The position numbers and the translations under genes are program-made. DNA of 31,728 bases from a virus. This document shows, in pieces, positions 3 to 31,529 of the stretch. The notes below the pieces were generated by a model. The model had not been told where the DNA came from and did not search any database. It saw only the letters and a program-made list of their open reading frames with translations. Within the stretch, counting starts at the first letter, position 1. Every line of letters begins with the position of its first letter. Location of the stretch: positions 1 to 31,728 of the IMG/VR virus record IMGVR_UViG_3300028843_000322; one strand, 5' to 3'.

Positions 3-890
3 ACAAAATACTTTATCAAAGAAATTACTAGTATTTGGAATACAAGAGATGAAGCTGAGATTGAAGAGACTACAATCCAAAGAAACTTAGACATTGTTAA
101 AAATCCAAAATATTATAATCTTGCTATTGGTAATGCTTTTGATGGCTCTTGTAACATTGGTATGGTAACTTGCAGGGATATTTCAACTAACAAATTAATA
201 ACTATTGAGTCTAAAATATACCAGAGTAATAAAGACAAATATCTTTATCATCAAACCAATTTCTTTAATGCCTTTAATACAAAAACTAAAAAATACCAAA
301 AAGTTTCAACATTAGATTTTTATTCATCTCCAGAACTAGTTTCAGACCATAAAAATATGGTGGTAGCAAAATCTTTAAAAACAGGAAAGAAAGAATTAGT
401 TAATAAAACCACTTTCGAGAATAATAGTGATTTAGTGGGAGTTGCGAATAATAAGGTTTCAGTTCAACTAGCTGATGGAACTACAAAGTCAGTATCACTC
501 AATGAGTTTAAAAATAATACAGAGTTAAATGGTGTAACCAAAAATACAATAGCAGTTGAGAATATTCATACCAAAGAAGTGAAAAGGTTTAAGAAAGGAA
601 CATTTGATAAAAATATATGGACTACATTATTATCTAGTAGAGTAAGAGGTTCAAAAGTCAATACTGCAATAAAAGTTCAAATCTTTGATATGAATGATAA
701 TTTGCAGTTTGAAACTCATGGAAATTTTATACAAATTTGTAATAAAAATAATTTACCAACGACAGCGTTACAAACATCATATCTTGCTGGTGGAACTCCT
801 CTTTATGAAAGTGCAGCTAAAGGTACTATTACTAAATTAATCAATAACAATAAAATTCAATTTAAAGGTTGGTATGCTATTAAAGTATGA
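3..890 (+). CDS. GIY-YIG homing endonuclease, 3' part (cut by window edge)
   Basis: The frame is open from base 3, so the gene begins left of the window and the ATG at 162 is probably internal. The first residues (KYFIKEITSIWNTRDEAEIEE) match the segment after the GIY-YIG core in the two complete homologues in this window, at 26359-27405 and 28865-29974. That segment has the conserved W-x-TR-x-x-A-x-x-E pattern. The GIY and YIG motifs themselves lie outside the window. After it come about five units of 31-35 residues, each ending in a pattern such as TTFENNSDLVGV or NEFKNNTELNGV. A C-terminal domain with NKNNLPTTALQTSY and FKGWYAIKV is shared with the other two. The family makes double-strand breaks that copy the gene into endonuclease-free relatives. 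The homology call is strong; the target is unknown. Confidence 0.8.
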   Translation, partial: TKYFIKEITSIWNTRDEAEIEETTIQRNLDIVKNPKYYNLAIGNAFDGSCNIGMVTCRDISTNKLITIESKIYQSNKDKYLYHQTNFFNAFNTKTKKYQKVSTLDFYSSPELVSDHKNMVVAKSLKTGKKELVNKTTFENNSDLVGVANNKVSVQLADGTTKSVSLNEFKNNTELNGVTKNTIAVENIHTKEVKRFKKGTFDKNIWTTLLSSRVRGSKVNTAIKVQIFDMNDNLQFETHGNFIQICNKNNLPTTALQTSYLAGGTPLYESAAKGTITKLINNNKIQFKGWYAIKV

Positions 891-20611: not shown

Positions 20612-23600
20612 ATGATAGTTAAAAATTATTTTGGAACATCACTTGACTTTCTTCCTAAAGAAGTTATGACAAGAGGTCTTTCAACACATATTAATTCTTA
20701 TAAAGAGTTAGTTTCATACAAGAATATAATTTATTTAATGACTGGTTCTATGCCAGAAACCAATGAATTGTACGAAATCAATGATGTTACAGAATTTGAA
20801 GCTACTTATGGTTCTGATATTGTAACAAAGATTGATGGTATTGATTTAGCTTATCACTATGATACTGCTAAAAAAGAAAGAATTATTAAGAAGGGCTGGA
20901 AAGATGCTTTAGATTTCACTTATAATGTAGATGGGACTATTTCATGGTTTGCTGTTAAATTATCAGAGTTAGAAGAACCCTTTGTTAAGGCAGAAAGTAT
21001 TGAATGTATTGATGCGGTACCTTGTGAAGATTTTTCAATCAATGATTTGGATACACCACCACATGATAATATAAGTTTTTTGAATCTCGCAAGATTAGGA
21101 ATTACTAAATACACAGTAATGGACATAATATTTACTTTTAGTAAGCCAGAATTATTAACTCAATTTTTATTCATGGAATATAGTTATATTTCTGAATTTT
21201 TTGTATATCTATCAAATGATAAAACAAATTGGTTAGAAGTTGATTATCAATCAACCGATAGTAATGGTTTGTTACACACTAAAAGATTAAACAACCACAA
21301 TGATACGACAAAATATAAATATGCGAAAGTAAGAGTTGTTAATAGGAATAATGGTGCAGGTTATATATCTTTTGCAGGCTTTAAAAGACAAGTCGATGAA
21401 GACCATACTTTAATTTTTTCTGATAGTATAGGTGTGTGGGAAGATACAGATAGAGTAATCATTACTGAAACTTTATCAGGAACTCAAGGGTCTCCAAACA
21501 TATTTAAAGATTTTACTTTAGCTATGAGAGATACATGTAATCTTGAAATTGCTGCAGAACCTACTGTGGAATATACAGACAATGATGCAGGTATAATCAT
21601 TATTAATGCTATTTCTGATAATATCATTACTAACCCAGAAAGATTACAAGATTTAATTATTGATGGAACAACTATTGGTATTGAAAATGGGCAAGAAATT
21701 GAGGCTTATTTAAATGGTGCAAGATATGTTACCAATGTAGTTGATAGTATTTGGTCTATTACAGTTCCTGCAGAAGATGTTTCTGTTTTAACTTATGATA
21801 CTACTTACAATGTTAAAGTTGATTGTAGAGATAGAGCTGGTAACTTAGGTACATCAAATAGAGATGTTTTCGTTAAAGCTGAGAATGTTGCTCCTGTTAT
21901 TACTGTTGTTTCTACTCTAACAGTTCTTGAAGATAGCTCAACTGAAATCGCTGTATCATTTAGTGATACTGACGGTTCAATTGTAAGTAAATCTGTAAGT
22001 GCGTTAAATGGTACTGTTGTGTACAATGAAGATACAAATATTATTACATATGCACCAAATAATAACTTTAATGGTAGTGATACTATTTCAATTAGTGTAA
22101 TAGATGACTTAAATGCGGAAACTATTGCAACTATTTCAACAACAGTTACAAGTGTTAATGATATAGCTACTCTTATTATTGCTGAAAGTGTTACTACTGA
22201 TGAAGATACATTAATTACTATTCCTTATACTGCTACTGATATAGATGGAACTATTGTTTCTGTCACTGCAACTGTTGGAAATGGTACGGTATCTGTTGAT
22301 ATGGACAATAACACAATCGCATATACTCCAAGCTTAAACTTTAATGGTGGAGATACAATTGTTGTAACTGCTACTGATGATGAAGGTCTAGAAGTAATTA
22401 AAAATATTAGTGTAGTTGTTAATGCAATCAATGATGCTCCGGTTATAGCTATCTCTGATACTACTACAAATGAGGATACATTAGTTAATATCCCTTATAC
22501 TGCTAGTGATATTGAAGGTGGAATTGTTATTACTGTAAATGGAACTAACGGTGTAGCTGTTGTAGATTTAACAAACAACCAAATCGTATTTACACCAGAT
22601 AATAACTATGTTGGAACGGCTTCATTCGATGTAACTGTTACTGATAGTGAAGATGCTTTTATTACTAAAACTGTTAATGTTGAAGTAACATCTGTAAATG
22701 ATAATCCGATATTAGTAATGACTACTGTATATACTATGAATGAAAATACTTCTGAAGTAATTTCTTATTCTACTTCTGATATTGATGGAACAGTTGATAG
22801 TGTAACAACTACAACAAGTCAAAATGCAACTATTGTTGTAGATATGGTAGCTGAAACTATCACATATACACCAGATGCTGAATTTATTGGAAATGATTCA
22901 TTTACTGTTACTGCAACAGATAATGAAGGTGGAACAGATGAAAAAATTATTACTATTACGGTAGAAAATGTAGATGCTCCGGCAACTATAACTGTTGATA
23001 GTTTAGTTCTTACTGATGAAGAAACTGCTTTAGAAATTCCATTTACTTTTGATGATATTGATGGTGATGTTGTAGCTGTTGCCAGTGCTTTAAATGGTTC
23101 AACAACAATCTTAGATGGTGTGATTACATATACACCAACAATGGATTTCTTTGGAGATGATACAATTACATTATCAGGAACAGATGAGCTAGGTGGTGTT
23201 ACATCAACTACAATTACTGTTACTGTTGCTAATATAAATGATGATTCGATATTTGTTGTAGCTGAGAATATTTCTTTAGTTGAAAACACTTCAATAGAAA
23301 TACCTTTTACTGTTACTGATGTTGATGGTTCAATTACAGGAACAACTGTTTCAGCTTTAAATGGCTCAACAACAATCTTAGATGGTGTGATTACATATAC
23401 ACCGACTGAAGATTATGAAGGTTCAGATACAATTACTTTAGAAGCTACTGATATTGATTCAAATGTTACAAGCACAACTATTCCTGTAACGGTTACTCAT
23501 TTTGATAACTCAGCGGTAATTACAGTTGAAGCCAATGTAAGTGTAGATGAAGATTCAAGTATTGTTATTCCTTATACTGCTTCTGATGAAGATGGAACTA

Positions 23601-24577
23601 TAACAACTACTGTTAGTGCTACTGAAGGTGATGTTACTATTGATGCTACGGATATTACATATACTCCATCGGCTAACTTTAATGGAACTACTACAATCAC
23701 ATTAACTGTAACTGATAGTGTTGGTGGTGTAACTACTTCTGATATTACTGTTACTGTTGGTAATATTGATGATGTGGCAACTTTCACTATTGAAGCTAAT
23801 GTTTCTTTAGATGAAAATACTTCATTAGATATACCATATACTGTAACTGATATTGATGGTGATATTGTAGATACTACTGTATCTGCACTTAATGCTATTG
23901 TAACTGTATCAGAAGGTGTGATTACATATACACCGACTGCAGATTATGAAGGCTCAGATACAATTACTTTAACTGTAACTGATTCTAAAGGTGGTGTTAC
24001 AAATACTACTGTTTCTGTAACTGTGAATCATGTTGATACTCCATCTGTAATAACTATTACAAGTGGTGTGATTATGGATGAAAATACTTCATTAGACATT
24101 ACATTTACTGCAACTGATGCTGATGGAACAATTACAGGTCAAACTGTAACTGCTTCAAATGGTTCTGTAACAACTACTGCTGATACGATTTCATATACAC
24201 CAACAACAGACTTTGTTGGAGATGATACAATAGTATTAACTGTAACTGATTCTGATGGTGTTGAAACTATTGAAAATATTACTGTAACAGTAAATAATGT
24301 TGATGAAAATACTCCGGCTGAAGTTACTTTAATTGAAACTTTAACTGTTGCTCCAGATTCTTTAACAGATATTGATTATACTGCAACAGATGTTGATGAT
24401 GATACATTAACGATAACAGTTACTAATTCTGAAAATGGTTCAGTTAGTATCAATACAGAGAATAAAAGAATTTCTTATGATGCTCCAAGTGTCGCAGGAA
24501 CAGACACAATTACATTAACAGTTAATGATGGAACAGTAGATACAATTAAAACTATCTCTGTTACTATTGAAGCATAA
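20612..24577 (+). CDS. A3: enlarged A-family protein with discoidin insertion and ten cadherin-like domains, 1321 aa
   Basis: The first 120 residues follow A1 and A2 (FGTSLDFLP, MTGSMPETNELYEI, FEATYGSDIVTKIDGI, then GTISWFAVKLSE). The core is then interrupted by a discoidin-like module at about residues 121-266 (FFVYLSNDKTNWLEVDYQS, then YAKVRVVNRNNGAGYISF). It resumes with TLIFSDSIGVWEDTDRV and IFKDFTLAMRD. After an Ig-like linker domain come ten tandem cadherin-like domains of 88-92 residues (427-1321). Each begins with a D/E-E-D/N-T-type strand, carries a D-x-D-G motif and ends before N-x-D. Such domains commonly bind calcium and act in adhesion. The protein probably projects a long flexible arm from a particle site built by the A core. 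This role is inferred. Confidence 0.8.
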   Translation: MIVKNYFGTSLDFLPKEVMTRGLSTHINSYKELVSYKNIIYLMTGSMPETNELYEINDVTEFEATYGSDIVTKIDGIDLAYHYDTAKKERIIKKGWKDALDFTYNVDGTISWFAVKLSELEEPFVKAESIECIDAVPCEDFSINDLDTPPHDNISFLNLARLGITKYTVMDIIFTFSKPELLTQFLFMEYSYISEFFVYLSNDKTNWLEVDYQSTDSNGLLHTKRLNNHNDTTKYKYAKVRVVNRNNGAGYISFAGFKRQVDEDHTLIFSDSIGVWEDTDRVIITETLSGTQGSPNIFKDFTLAMRDTCNLEIAAEPTVEYTDNDAGIIIINAISDNIITNPERLQDLIIDGTTIGIENGQEIEAYLNGARYVTNVVDSIWSITVPAEDVSVLTYDTTYNVKVDCRDRAGNLGTSNRDVFVKAENVAPVITVVSTLTVLEDSSTEIAVSFSDTDGSIVSKSVSALNGTVVYNEDTNIITYAPNNNFNGSDTISISVIDDLNAETIATISTTVTSVNDIATLIIAESVTTDEDTLITIPYTATDIDGTIVSVTATVGNGTVSVDMDNNTIAYTPSLNFNGGDTIVVTATDDEGLEVIKNISVVVNAINDAPVIAISDTTTNEDTLVNIPYTASDIEGGIVITVNGTNGVAVVDLTNNQIVFTPDNNYVGTASFDVTVTDSEDAFITKTVNVEVTSVNDNPILVMTTVYTMNENTSEVISYSTSDIDGTVDSVTTTTSQNATIVVDMVAETITYTPDAEFIGNDSFTVTATDNEGGTDEKIITITVENVDAPATITVDSLVLTDEETALEIPFTFDDIDGDVVAVASALNGSTTILDGVITYTPTMDFFGDDTITLSGTDELGGVTSTTITVTVANINDDSIFVVAENISLVENTSIEIPFTVTDVDGSITGTTVSALNGSTTILDGVITYTPTEDYEGSDTITLEATDIDSNVTSTTIPVTVTHFDNSAVITVEANVSVDEDSSIVIPYTASDEDGTITTTVSATEGDVTIDATDITYTPSANFNGTTTITLTVTDSVGGVTTSDITVTVGNIDDVATFTIEANVSLDENTSLDIPYTVTDIDGDIVDTTVSALNAIVTVSEGVITYTPTADYEGSDTITLTVTDSKGGVTNTTVSVTVNHVDTPSVITITSGVIMDENTSLDITFTATDADGTITGQTVTASNGSVTTTADTISYTPTTDFVGDDTIVLTVTDSDGVETIENITVTVNNVDENTPAEVTLIETLTVAPDSLTDIDYTATDVDDDTLTITVTNSENGSVSINTENKRISYDAPSVAGTDTITLTVNDGTVDTIKTISVTIEA
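21890..24574 (+). repeat. ten tandem cadherin-like coding repeats
   Basis: Ten consecutive units of about 265-275 bases encode the cadherin-like domains of A3. Neighbouring units share long stretches at the DNA level: the block around 23098-23138 recurs almost unchanged around 23366-23406, and a stretch from about 23383 recurs with few changes near 23915. This indicates recent unequal recombination or gene conversion in the middle of the array, while the first and last units are more diverged. Confidence 0.85.
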
Positions 24578-26352: not shown

Positions 26353-26369
26353 AGGAGATTATATCTCCT
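26353..26369. terminator. bidirectional terminator between convergent genes
   Basis: A perfect seven-base-pair inverted repeat, AGGAGAT and ATCTCCT, closes a three-base loop just after the stop of the + strand gene. It overlaps the stop of the - strand endonuclease gene (26359-26361). The stem is short and only two T follow on the + strand. Confidence 0.6.
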
Positions 26370-27405
26370 TCGCATACCACCCCTGATACTTTAAATAATC
26401 ATACTTCTTTAACTTCCACATATTACTACCAACAAGAGAATAAATTGGTTCTCCATCATTTTGACACGAAGTAGCAAAAGCATTAAATGGTAATTTATTA
26501 TCTTTACACATTTGTTTAAATTTTCCATAGGCTTTAAATCGCTCTATACCATCTAAATCATATATTGCTATCACTTTTGAAGCATGGTGTTTGTAATAAT
26601 CATATTTTCTGTAATCTTCTTTTGTAACTTGTTTGAATTGATTGTCTCTTGTGTCACGAACGATTAATGTTCCCTTCATCACACTAATATAATGTTCATT
26701 GGTGTCAAATTCTTCTTTTGATACAGATTGGTTCTTTCCAGTATGTTTATTCAAAACATTAACTCTTCCTTGTTGAACACCACATAAGTTGTCATCATTA
26801 TCAAACTTTTCTTTTGTAACTTGTTTAGTAATTCCAGTCAATTTATTCACAGCAGTAACTGTGTTTGTAACTCTATGATTATATAGGTGTTTGTTCTCCT
26901 TATATTCACTTCTTGAAACTCTTACCTTTTCACCGGTTTCTTTCACTATTACAGCAACTCTATCACTATGAATTGAATGATATTTTTCGTCTTTGGCTTC
27001 TTTAACGGTAACGAACATCTTATTATTATTTTCATCCAATACAGTAACCATTCCAGATACATCAAAATTTGTCCCATGTGATTTTGATTTATTGTAATAA
27101 GACGGATGTTTAGCAATATCTAAGATGTTATGTATTCTTATTTCCTCAAGCATTGCTTCGTCTCTTGTATGCCAAGTTGATAAGATTTCTTTTTTAAAGG
27201 TTTTTATACCTTGAGTATCCATTGCTGCATCTAAATATTTTGATGATCCCATATAACCATCTTTGAGTGGATTTGAATTTTTATCAGAATGAACACCGAT
27301 ATAAAATTGTTGTTCGTCAATAGGATTTAAGTTTGTGATTTTGTACACATAATGTGTTTTGTTTGTGGTTGTGGTTGTGGTTGTGGTTGTGGTTGTGGTT
27401 GTCAT
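26359..27405 (-). CDS. GIY-YIG homing endonuclease with polythreonine N terminus and repeat array, 348 aa
   Basis: This is a complete freestanding GIY-YIG nuclease. The catalytic half has HYVYKITN (residues 18-25), FYIGVHS (34-40), DGYMGSSKYL (49-58) and the conserved WHTRDEAMLEE (78-88). Residues 119-276 form five repeats of about 31-33 residues, with patterns such as VTKEKFDNDDNLCGV and VSKEEFDTNEHYISV. The C-terminal domain (CKDNKLPFNAFATS, YQGWYAKEI) is shared with the other two copies. The product should cut DNA at a phage target and promote spread of its own gene. Oddly, the protein begins with Met and 13 threonines, encoded by six copies of a hexamer; the related gene at 29974 begins directly at MIHYVYKITN. 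A late promoter and two hairpins lie in its leader. It stands back to back with the terminase half gene. Confidence 0.85.
   Translation of the reverse strand: MTTTTTTTTTTTTTNKTHYVYKITNLNPIDEQQFYIGVHSDKNSNPLKDGYMGSSKYLDAAMDTQGIKTFKKEILSTWHTRDEAMLEEIRIHNILDIAKHPSYYNKSKSHGTNFDVSGMVTVLDENNNKMFVTVKEAKDEKYHSIHSDRVAVIVKETGEKVRVSRSEYKENKHLYNHRVTNTVTAVNKLTGITKQVTKEKFDNDDNLCGVQQGRVNVLNKHTGKNQSVSKEEFDTNEHYISVMKGTLIVRDTRDNQFKQVTKEDYRKYDYYKHHASKVIAIYDLDGIERFKAYGKFKQMCKDNKLPFNAFATSCQNDGEPIYSLVGSNMWKLKKYDYLKYQGWYAKEI
27365..27400. repeat. hexanucleotide microsatellite (GTGGTT)6
   Basis: Six perfect tandem copies of GTGGTT on the + strand (ACAACC on the coding - strand) encode most of the threonine run at the N terminus of the endonuclease. 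A change in copy number would add or remove two threonines without shifting the frame. Confidence 0.95.
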
Positions 27406-27519: not shown

Positions 27520-27581
27520 CTTCCAAACCATTAATTATTCAAACTTTCATATTTTTGGAATACAAATGGATAAATAGGTGT

Positions 27582-27914
27582 ATGACTAAAAATAATAGAT
27601 ACCTAATAAAAACACCAGATGGATATAAATCGTTTGCAGGAATAGCAGAATCAGAACATAAATCATATACTGAAATATTTTTTACCAACGGTGAAAAAGT
27701 TAAGTGTAGTAAAAATCATGTATTGTGGACTGATGAAGGTGATGAAATAAAAGTAGAAGATGTAATGGTTGGAATGAAGCTTAAAACTGAAAAAGAACCT
27801 TTCATAATTGAGTCAATTAAAGAGTTTTTTCATACTTCAAACCTATTAGATATTATAGAAGTTGACAACGAAAATAATAGCTTTTTACTCCAGAACACCT
27901 TATTATCTCACAAT
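27582..27914 (+). other. C-terminal fragment of an atypical (AceL-TerL-like) split intein
   Basis: Residues 1-111 of the terminase half gene. Visible blocks are a B-type motif (KVKCSKNHVLW, His46), an F-like segment (LLDIIEVDNENNSFLL) and the terminal SHN, followed by the +1 nucleophile Cys112. The N-terminal A block with the first catalytic Cys is missing: the fragment begins with NNRYLIKTPDGYKSFAGI. This matches in order and spacing the C-fragment of the Ace Lake terminase intein as I remember it (about 104 residues, paired with an N-fragment of about 25 residues). It also aligns to gp41-1 only from its second beta region onward. Confidence 0.85.
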
Positions 27915-28868
27915 TGCCAGTTTCTTTCATTTGAGCGTATACTTATTGACTCAGATCACCTTGACTTTTTACAGACACCAGAGGTTACTTCAATACATAA
28001 TGGCTTTACTGTCTTCAAAGATAGTTTAGAGAATTTAGATTCATTTGTGATTATCACCATTGATCCAAGTGCCGGTGGAGAGGATAGCTCAGTGATGCAA
28101 TTATGGGAAGTTACTCCTAAAAAGATTTATCAGCTTGGGACTATTGCAGACCCAGACTTAGATGCTTCTGGTCTGTTTGAAATGATTTTATGGATGCAAG
28201 AATTCCTAAGAGAGCAGTGGAACTACGATCCACAAGATGCACTAATTATGTTTGAGAGAAATGGTGTTGGTGAGGGGCTTTCACAGATTTTAACACAGAC
28301 TGAAAAAGCAACAGAGTTCTTAGAGATACCTATATACTATGATAGCAAAAATGCTGGTGTTCAATTAACACCGCCAATGAAAAAGAAATTAGCACTACAA
28401 TTCAAGAACCTTGTAGAGTATAATAAGATTCAGATTAATGATTCCGAACTAATTGATGAGTTATATGGTTTTATTAGAAACACAAATGGTAGTTATTCTG
28501 CAAAAAGTGGATATCACGATGATAGAATTATGGCAGCTTTCTACTTAGTATATTACATCATGAATGTGTTTGCAGAATTTGCAGATGGTGAGTTTTCACT
28601 CGATCACATGATGTTGGTTGATAAAGACGATAAGATTAAAATAGACAATAAGACTGTTGCAGACCCAGCCGCCAAATATAGAGAGAGAATTGAAAAAGAA
28701 AAATCTGATTTAGCTGACCTTGATAAGAAAATATTAGATGATAAAGCTCGTGAAAGAGAACAATATGCTCAAATGGCTCAAATGGGTTCAAGTGTTATTG
28801 AAGGTGACGATGAAGATGGTGATTTTGTTGACTACGACAATTATGATATATTACCCACCAATTTCTAA
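27582..28868 (+). CDS. terminase large subunit, C-terminal (nuclease) half with N-terminal split-intein fragment, 428 aa
   Basis: Residues 1-111 are a C-terminal split-intein fragment and residues 112-428 are the C-extein. The extein is the RNase H-like nuclease of a T4 gp17-type terminase, which cuts concatemeric DNA during head filling. It has IITIDPSAGG (Asp161), IMFERNGVGEG (Glu225) and SGYHDDRIM (Asp313/314), corresponding to the three catalytic acidic positions of T4 gp17. The stretch CQFLSFERILIDSDHLDFL aligns with the T4 segment AAFEGTSGTLISGMKL, just before the nuclease domain. No Walker A or B motif is present, so the ATPase half must be encoded elsewhere and joined by trans-splicing. 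I chose the ATG at 27582; an in-frame TTG at 27555 is less likely. An acidic tail of about 80 residues extends beyond the T4-like core. The stop overlaps the convergent endonuclease stop by four bases. Confidence 0.88.
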   Translation: MTKNNRYLIKTPDGYKSFAGIAESEHKSYTEIFFTNGEKVKCSKNHVLWTDEGDEIKVEDVMVGMKLKTEKEPFIIESIKEFFHTSNLLDIIEVDNENNSFLLQNTLLSHNCQFLSFERILIDSDHLDFLQTPEVTSIHNGFTVFKDSLENLDSFVIITIDPSAGGEDSSVMQLWEVTPKKIYQLGTIADPDLDASGLFEMILWMQEFLREQWNYDPQDALIMFERNGVGEGLSQILTQTEKATEFLEIPIYYDSKNAGVQLTPPMKKKLALQFKNLVEYNKIQINDSELIDELYGFIRNTNGSYSAKSGYHDDRIMAAFYLVYYIMNVFAEFADGEFSLDHMMLVDKDDKIKIDNKTVADPAAKYRERIEKEKSDLADLDKKILDDKAREREQYAQMAQMGSSVIEGDDEDGDFVDYDNYDILPTNF

Positions 28869-30058: not shown

Positions 30059-30348
30059 ATGCAGTATTGAGGATATCTATCCTCATAATATTTGATGTCC
30101 ATTATAAGCATTGACATACTATATTCACTGTCACCATTTTTATTCCTACCTTGTGCAATACATCTACTGTAATGTGCTTTTACAGCAATATATTCAGCCA
30201 TTATCTTGTTATCACCCACATATAGGGTTTCAGTTCTTTTGATTTGCGAATTCAATAAGTTTCCAGTTTTATTGTTCTTATACTTGGGTTCATCATCACG
30301 GCGAGTATAAATTCTTCCAGTTTTAGTAACAATATAATGTATTTTCAT
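30055..30348 (-). CDS. hypothetical protein, 97 aa
   Basis: A 97-residue basic protein that I do not recognise, beginning MKIHYIVTKTGRIYTRRDDE and containing MAEYIAVKAHYSRCIAQGR. It is soluble by appearance, with no signal peptide or membrane segment. The ATG shares one base with the stop of the upstream membrane-protein gene (TAATG type), so the two are translationally coupled and transcribed from the sigma70-like promoter near 31616. Its stop overlaps the stop of the old terminase remnant, so it was probably the original convergent neighbour of the terminase gene before the endonuclease insertion. Confidence 0.7.
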   Translation of the reverse strand: MKIHYIVTKTGRIYTRRDDEPKYKNNKTGNLLNSQIKRTETLYVGDNKIMAEYIAVKAHYSRCIAQGRNKNGDSEYSMSMLIMDIKYYEDRYPQYCI

Positions 30349-31529
30349 TATCTTTTTCTATCATAATTATTAAGAAATTTCCAAGTAATGAAAGTTGTTA
30401 GTGCTGCATTCATTAAGAAAATAAGCAGTTGCCAATACCATTCAAGAGTGATATTATCTTTAAGGTATGCAAATTCTTTCATTGGTTTACGAACATATTG
30501 ATTATGCACATGTTTCTTGTAGATTTCCAGTATTTTAGTAGAGTCTTTGTTCATATCCAAACCAATAAAGTCATTCTGCATATCAACTATAAAGTCAGTA
30601 TTATTGGTGTAAGTAATAACATCTGACCATACAACAACACCGCTGTCATCAACACCAACTACAAGAGTAATATCATTCTTTTTACCCTTAGCCCAATGCT
30701 GAGAGATAACATCTGTAAAGCTTCTTGGTTCATTAACAACATAGATAATTGGATTACCTTGTTTTACTTGCCCAATAGCTATTGACATATCATTCAGTGG
30801 GTTGATATAGTCTGATTTAACTACCCCAGTTACATCAATAAATCTATTCAACTTTGGAGCGCCAAACTTGTCTTTGTATCGGGTAGGATAATCTCTAAGA
30901 GTTCCTGCTTTTAAAGCTAAGTCAATATCAGATTGTGGCACTTTTGTATGCACTACATTACTTTTAACTGCTTTCACTAAGTTCTCATAAGTGTGACTTA
31001 CAGCAGTTGGTATAACTATATTTGGAACTGAAACATATTTGTCTCCATCATCCCATGATACTTGGTTATATCTACTAATATTAACTTCTTTGTGACCAAA
31101 CTGTTTTGAAGCAGACCTATATTCACTTTTTGTTATACGAACAGTTTCATCATTAGAAGTTGTTATTTGCCAGTAAGGTGGATGATAATCAATTCTTGTT
31201 TTAGTTCTGGTACAAGTCTTTGGATTTTTTGAAGACCCACAAGAATAACTCTCAGTGTATGTTACTTCTTCTTTCCATTCTTCATAGTATTCAAACTTAG
31301 AAACTTTTGCACTCCAGTATTCATTGTCAATCAAGTCAGTGGTTGTGCTAAATAATAGTGAGTAAATTAATACAACAAATACAAATGTTGCACCCGCTTG
31401 GATTCCAAATTCTTTCCAAATGTATTCTTTATGTGTCATCGCCAAATATAGTGCCGAAGCAACTGGCAATAAGAGGTTAAAATAAAAACCAAAGTTGGCA
31501 AACACTATCTCAAATAAACTACTAAACAT
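30348..31529 (-). CDS. phage membrane protein, three predicted membrane segments, 393 aa
   Basis: Hydrophobic segments are seen at about residues 9-31, 43-61 and 366-386, with a large polar domain of about 300 residues between the second and third. The polar domain begins with FEYYEEWKEEVTYTESY, two cysteines (97 and 106, in SCGSSKNPKTCTRT) and YHPPYW. That pattern resembles a conserved membrane protein of unknown function I remember from other large T4-like phages. The two cysteines could form a disulphide if the domain lies in the periplasm. Location in the host inner membrane is predicted. It is first in a two-gene unit with the 97-residue protein, behind a sigma70-like promoter, suggesting early expression. 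A role in host takeover, lysis control or exclusion is possible but unsupported. Confidence 0.75.
   Translation of the reverse strand: MFSSLFEIVFANFGFYFNLLLPVASALYLAMTHKEYIWKEFGIQAGATFVFVVLIYSLLFSTTTDLIDNEYWSAKVSKFEYYEEWKEEVTYTESYSCGSSKNPKTCTRTKTRIDYHPPYWQITTSNDETVRITKSEYRSASKQFGHKEVNISRYNQVSWDDGDKYVSVPNIVIPTAVSHTYENLVKAVKSNVVHTKVPQSDIDLALKAGTLRDYPTRYKDKFGAPKLNRFIDVTGVVKSDYINPLNDMSIAIGQVKQGNPIIYVVNEPRSFTDVISQHWAKGKKNDITLVVGVDDSGVVVWSDVITYTNNTDFIVDMQNDFIGLDMNKDSTKILEIYKKHVHNQYVRKPMKEFAYLKDNITLEWYWQLLIFLMNAALTTFITWKFLNNYDRKR

Follow-up and report, generated by a model that had tools for sequence, protein, structure and literature searches.

Tandem 32-residue repeats in phage GIY-YIG endonucleases beside a fractured terminase gene, a candidate modular DNA-binding array

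Introduction

What do long arrays of a short repeat contribute to phage nucleases? The question is raised by three GIY-YIG endonuclease genes in IMG/VR virus record IMGVR_UViG_3300028843_000322. The window analyzed here is the entire 31.7-kb record (31,728 nucleotides), which is probably a piece of a bigger phage genome. A first-pass annotation made from the letters alone had assigned all three proteins the same plan of nuclease, array of about 32-residue repeats, and C-terminal domain, and had suggested that the array may be a modular DNA-recognition region. Our analysis favors an explanation in which the window encodes three free-standing homing endonucleases whose arrays form a modular DNA-binding region; taken jointly, cleavage included, we consider this explanation probable, with moderate confidence.

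Results

Blind self-comparison peaked at a lag of 32 residues in P0001 (26359-27405, minus strand, 348 amino acids; z 5.6) and P0002 (28865-29974, minus strand, 369 amino acids; z 4.8), and at a lag of 31/32 (z 2.8/2.5) in P0003 (3-890, plus strand, 295 amino acids), which is cut by the window's left edge. Profiles built without the protein under test scored 69, 75, and 22 bits for P0001, P0002, and P0003, far above the maxima of 12, 8, and 7 bits among 300 shuffles, and the repeat array is therefore real. The previously proposed unit counts also held, with five units in P0001 (26578..27054, minus strand, residues 118-276; lag-32 self-similarity, held-out hidden Markov model [HMM], and AlphaFold2 [AF2]), six in P0002 (29090..29668, minus strand, residues 103-295; self-similarity and held-out HMM), and five in P0003 (159..638, plus strand, residues 53-212; held-out HMM and comparison with an orthologue on contig L126). 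The motif first described, a beta-like turn followed by a V/I-S/T-K segment and a closing Y/L, survives as a loose consensus, and 33 units of exactly 32 amino acids from the window and its nearest relatives gave a tighter version, [GN]-x-V-x-V-x-[DN]-x-x-[TD]-[GN]-...-V-[ST]-K-x-E-[FY]-...-[YL]-[VI]-[SGH]-x-x-[KST]. As had been noted, the nuclease is conserved while the repeats have diverged, with identities between the paralogues of 47-56% in the nuclease, 30-34% in the array, and 27-40% in the C-terminal domain.

The GIY-YIG domain of P0001 (27061..27357, minus strand, residues 17-115) was recognized by Pfam (SegE_GIY-YIG, E 2e-5), PHROG (PHROG_314 homing endonuclease, 3e-18), and Foldseek, which matched its predicted structure to the I-TevI catalytic domain (prob 0.98, E 0.05). 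That of P0002 (29675..29974, minus strand, residues 1-100) matched PHROG_314 (5e-16) and, short of the curated cut-off, SegE_GIY-YIG (E 1.4e-4). In P0003, only the last ~50 residues of the nuclease are visible (3..143, plus strand; 55% identity to P0001 across 47 residues), and its full-length orthologue is L126:3257-4321. The active-site glutamate (Glu88) is invariant in our alignment A6, and a Tyr/Phe-Asn pair stands at the expected active-site place in all three window proteins (Asn105 of P0001). Judged from these matches, the window nuclease is SegB/SegE-like with the I-TevI fold, combining the GIY-YIG fold and motif that define a Seg-like homing endonuclease. Behind the arrays lie C-terminal domains at 26362..26577 in P0001 (minus strand, residues 277-348; an AF2-predicted hairpin plus two helices), 28868..29089 in P0002 (minus strand; 40% identity in alignment with the P0001 domain), and 639..887 in P0003 (plus strand; L126 orthologue comparison).

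The repeats extend well beyond this record. Scanning viral contigs for DPRYxSGEL, the signature of a second form of the unit, yielded 100 stretches containing one or more matches, while 85,000 cellular genomes scanned in the same way gave 7. Together with phage records, the viral-contig scan yielded 98 distinct open reading frames (ORFs) with 1 to 14 units, spaced exactly 32 residues apart in 230 of 269 cases. By sequence pattern, the repeats form a large phage-associated family. The DPRY form and the "SKEEF" form found in the window are one family, as indicated by single arrays that contain both (L105, L102, L125, L077, and I-LimIII), by a single hhalign comparison of their profiles (E 3.5e-4, probability 38%), and by AlphaFold models in which both forms have a hairpin, a short helix, and a short strand per unit.

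Units are common to GIY-YIG and HNH homing endonucleases, and in complete ORFs they almost always lie beside a site-specific nuclease, in many phages and at different insertion sites. For example, Vibrio phage 2.275.O has units on a GIY-YIG protein and on an HNH ORF that is interrupted by a stop codon, and HNH proteins interrupting the DNA polymerase genes of several phages carry them, including I-LimII and I-LimIII. T4 MobA has one unit (12.3 bits, i-E 6e-5), and 12 of 14 HNH members have a single unit. In Campylobacter phage IBB_35, a split-intein/HNH protein within the terminase gene carries units; the ORF (L013:2146-3537) combines an atypical C-terminal intein part (IntC), which matches CatC (E 8e-7), with an HNH domain, repeat units, and an apparent second intein start. 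Arrays like that of L040, a regular one of 10 units, run to the end of the ORF without a clear C-terminal domain. In some endonucleases (L033:3788-4795 and L105:11409-13010), the 32-amino-acid units are followed by another repeated module, W-x-N-G...GWxxG, and a similar motif forms the tail of T4 SegB.

Searches of Pfam, NCBIfam, and PDB found no informative family for the repeats. No known family with another role emerged; such a family is what the first-pass annotation had named as fatal to its proposal. Pfam array matches to Myosin_N, Cupin_3, TUDOR, and RuvA_N were dropped as mutually unrelated, mostly part-unit, and protein-dependent. PHROG_12434, an "HNH endonuclease," matches the arrays many times because its profile includes one unit (at positions ~165-196). 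We assign the repeats to no solved fold, since a PDB profile match to SAM lyase was not significant (E 0.026) and a Foldseek match of a DPRY array to virginiamycin B lyase (E 2.5e-4) had a TM score of 0.09 and a root-mean-square deviation of ~25 Å.

AF2 predicted each P0001 unit as a hairpin plus a short helix. Covariation supports the hairpin register, with pairs 2-16, 4-14, and 5-13 matching the predicted antiparallel register i+j=18. Across 328 distinct DPRY units, the conserved scaffold comprises V5, D7, G10, V15, and D19-L27, and the most variable positions are 29-31, 2, 4, 12, 14, and 16. Variation is concentrated where one unit joins the next (29-32/1-4) and on one face of the predicted hairpin, while positions 19-27 are conserved, as are, comparatively, the likely exposed positions 6, 8, 18-21, and 24-26. 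Within arrays, the nonsynonymous difference (pN) was ~0.55 at positions 4, 29, and 31 but ~0.01-0.1 across most of the core, where it was far lower than the synonymous difference (pS). In pairs of units sharing 80% or more core DNA identity, which are not independent of one another, residues differed at 66% of 29-32/1-4 versus 16% of the core. Hairpin geometry would place positions 2, 4, 12, 14, and 16 on one face, which they would share with position 6, mostly Lys/Arg.

Related arrays also differ in length by complete units. Among close relatives of the window proteins, counts of 4, 5, 6, and 7 units occur, and the alignment of P0001 with L160 contains a gap of about one unit; array length, as judged from such comparisons, shifts in unit steps. 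Non-adjacent DPRY-type units of one array reach 92-93% DNA identity, which fits the expectation from duplication and shuffling. In the orthologue pairs P0001/L126a and P0003/L126b, corresponding units were most alike, with the true order ranking 1 and 2 of 120 orders, and units therefore keep individual identities.

The genomic setting of the arrays is a gene in pieces. P0001 and P0002 flank a gene (27555-28868) that encodes the IntC of an atypically split intein (27555..27914, plus strand; CatC, an engineered consensus intein, PDB 6dsl_B, E 2.5e-9) joined to the C-terminal (nuclease) piece of a T4-like terminase large subunit (27915..28868, plus strand; T4 Gp17, E 1e-4, and PHROG terminase). 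This IntC has no block A and no Cys1 partner within the gene, and the window holds the last terminase piece only, with the N-terminal pieces lying outside it. On contig L126, the P0001 orthologue adjoins the equivalent piece. Another phage contig, 306 kb long, carries terminase pieces bearing split-intein ends at about 169, 200, and 230 kb, and two of these pieces each adjoin a repeat-bearing GIY-YIG gene, so that repeat-bearing genes abut fractured-terminase pieces in the window and in two other phage contigs. The three pieces of the 306-kb contig bear IntC and/or short IntN ends (about 33-45 amino acids), which implies that four or more pieces are joined by three or more trans-splicing events. 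The terminase large subunit appears to be encoded in parts, by several genes whose products are joined through atypical split inteins, of which the AceL-TerL type has been reviewed (PMC11766414). A terminase fractured at a split intein is a classic homing-endonuclease niche. Free-standing homing endonucleases at fractured, split-intein genes were reportedly described by Dassa et al. in 2009.

Terminase pieces outside the window occur at L142:4165-4917, L160:2705-4027, and L161:1002-1796, the last followed directly by a large ORF (L161:1796-2968) that ends in a segment resembling, by eye, a Vsr/EDxHD-like nuclease, as in described fractured genes. A threonyl-tRNA synthetase-like protein, also identified by eye, is encoded at L146:1558-2778 on the contig with the P0001/P0003 orthologues. 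Within the window, P0001 has a poly-Thr N terminus encoded by a (TTGTGG)6.7 microsatellite (27363..27402, minus strand; found with Tandem Repeats Finder [TRF]), a perfect repeat whose length could vary. A 1,321-amino-acid protein with about 10 cadherin-like/Big_9 domains (20612-24577) lies among large, probably structural genes, and a putative membrane protein (30348-31529) belongs to PHROG_2087, a family of unknown function.

Discussion

In the favored explanation, the SegB/SegE-like GIY-YIG domain would cut DNA, and the 5 or 6 tandem 32-residue units plus the small C-terminal domain would form the DNA-binding region. Each predicted beta-hairpin and short helix would align its hairpin face (2, 4, 12, 14, and 16) and linker (29-32/1-4) along the DNA, and unit number and content would help to define a long, allele-specific site close to the fractured terminase gene. 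The modular half of the original proposal is well supported by the exact spacing, the range of 1 to 14 units, whole-unit differences, near-duplicates, mixed arrays, and association with two nuclease classes. The DNA-recognition half is consistent with where the arrays lie, within homing endonucleases, and with which residues vary. We infer DNA contact, base reading or sequence specificity, the exact target, cleavage, and any code, and we offer as a hypothesis that the target is determined by how many units there are and what they contain.

Several observations weigh against this explanation. T4 SegB shares the nuclease but lacks the repeats, making the array dispensable for homing as such (SegB had been considered as an array carrier when a match reached residue 192, yet its sequence lacks units). 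The AF2 models had low predicted TM scores (0.33-0.37) and leave the arrangement of units unsettled, although the unit fold was consistent. P0002 and its positional counterpart on L160 had no unit-by-unit correspondence and were rejected as an orthologue pair on that test. The net charge per unit is just +0.7 to +0.9. Codons for the same residue differed at a rate of 0.40 in the hypervariable segment versus 0.22 in the core, so that part of the variation may reflect recombination or relaxed constraint instead of selection toward a new specificity; given these high synonymous differences, positive selection is not claimed.

Low charge and locally raised synonymous divergence would also suit an array that is a spacer, a ruler, or a non-specific DNA clamp, which would touch only the backbone or no DNA at all and hold the nuclease at a set distance from a specific C-terminal domain while surface residues drift. 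The I-TevI linker measures distance (PMC2988022), and the single unit of most HNH members agrees with such a role. However, hypervariability is confined to specific positions while other likely exposed ones are more conserved, units keep their identity in two orthologue pairs, and L040-like arrays end the ORF with no clear C-terminal domain. We regard a spacer or clamp as possible but doubtful.

At the opposite extreme, the favored DNA-binding array could be a TALE-like beta-hairpin array, in which each unit would read a constant count of base pairs by way of positions 29-31, 2, 4, 12, 14, and 16, and 1 to 14 units would form a readable, programmable code; we judge this strong form unlikely. 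More improbable still is an array that binds a protein or RNA partner, such as a replication or packaging factor, to localize the nuclease. Short beta-rich repeats often mediate protein contacts, but the units occur with two nuclease classes, in many phages and varied insertion sites, nearly always beside a site-specific nuclease. Least credible are role-less remnants of neutral tandem duplication, which recent unit duplications and the stop-broken HNH copy of Vibrio phage 2.275.O would suit, but which the conserved core, with pN well under pS, and an exact 32-residue register over as many as 14 units argue against.

A modular DNA-binding array would have precedents among phage nucleases. I-TevI and other phage homing endonucleases have "beads-on-a-string" modular DNA-binding regions (PMC2988022), and T4 Seg proteins and I-TevI, as proposed here for the window proteins, place such a region after an N-terminal GIY-YIG domain, with SegB aligning across the nuclease. 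However, I-TevI uses a zinc finger, a minor-groove helix, and a helix-turn-helix (HTH), and SegB has no repeats, whereas the window proteins have a long array of one type. The window C-terminal domain resembles the hairpin plus HTH of NUMOD1/IENR1 by eye, but this assignment found no support, as neither a NUMOD1 profile search of the record nor Pfam gave a significant match. T4 MobA, which is an HNH nuclease and reportedly nicks its target (PMC2988022), shares the unit in one or two copies with I-LimII, I-LimIII, and other HNH proteins of T4-like and Ackermann phages; these differ from the window proteins in nuclease class and in having mostly a single unit. T5orf172 homing endonucleases likewise combine a GIY-YIG-related nuclease with a variable count of DNA-binding repeats, tandem CapR/DUF723 zinc fingers for which repeat recombination has been described (PMC10448857). 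Those repeats are Cys-rich, and inspection of the window units found no CxxC...CxC motif.

Searches of the literature available without subscription turned up no description of the DPRYLSGE motif or of GIY-YIG homing endonucleases with repeat arrays. That phage homing endonucleases can have modular DNA-binding regions is known; in the literature covered, the fixed-length repeat without zinc, its occurrence on both GIY-YIG and HNH nucleases, arrays of up to 14 units, and the TALE-like layout appear unreported. At the least, the family provides a module for many phage genes annotated as "hypothetical" or merely as "homing endonuclease." If the arrays do read DNA modularly, they would explain target shifts of homing endonucleases and offer compact DNA-binding scaffolds, and rules of recognition could be tested directly on hundreds of distinct natural units that combine conserved scaffolds with a few variable sites. 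The closest analogy, with no homology claimed, is to TAL effector repeats, which also have ~33-residue units, a conserved scaffold, few hypervariable positions, and long arrays, but are helical, whereas the window units are predicted to be beta-beta-alpha. Arrays that read DNA modularly would be a phage-evolved analogue of these repeats, naturally fused to small nucleases.
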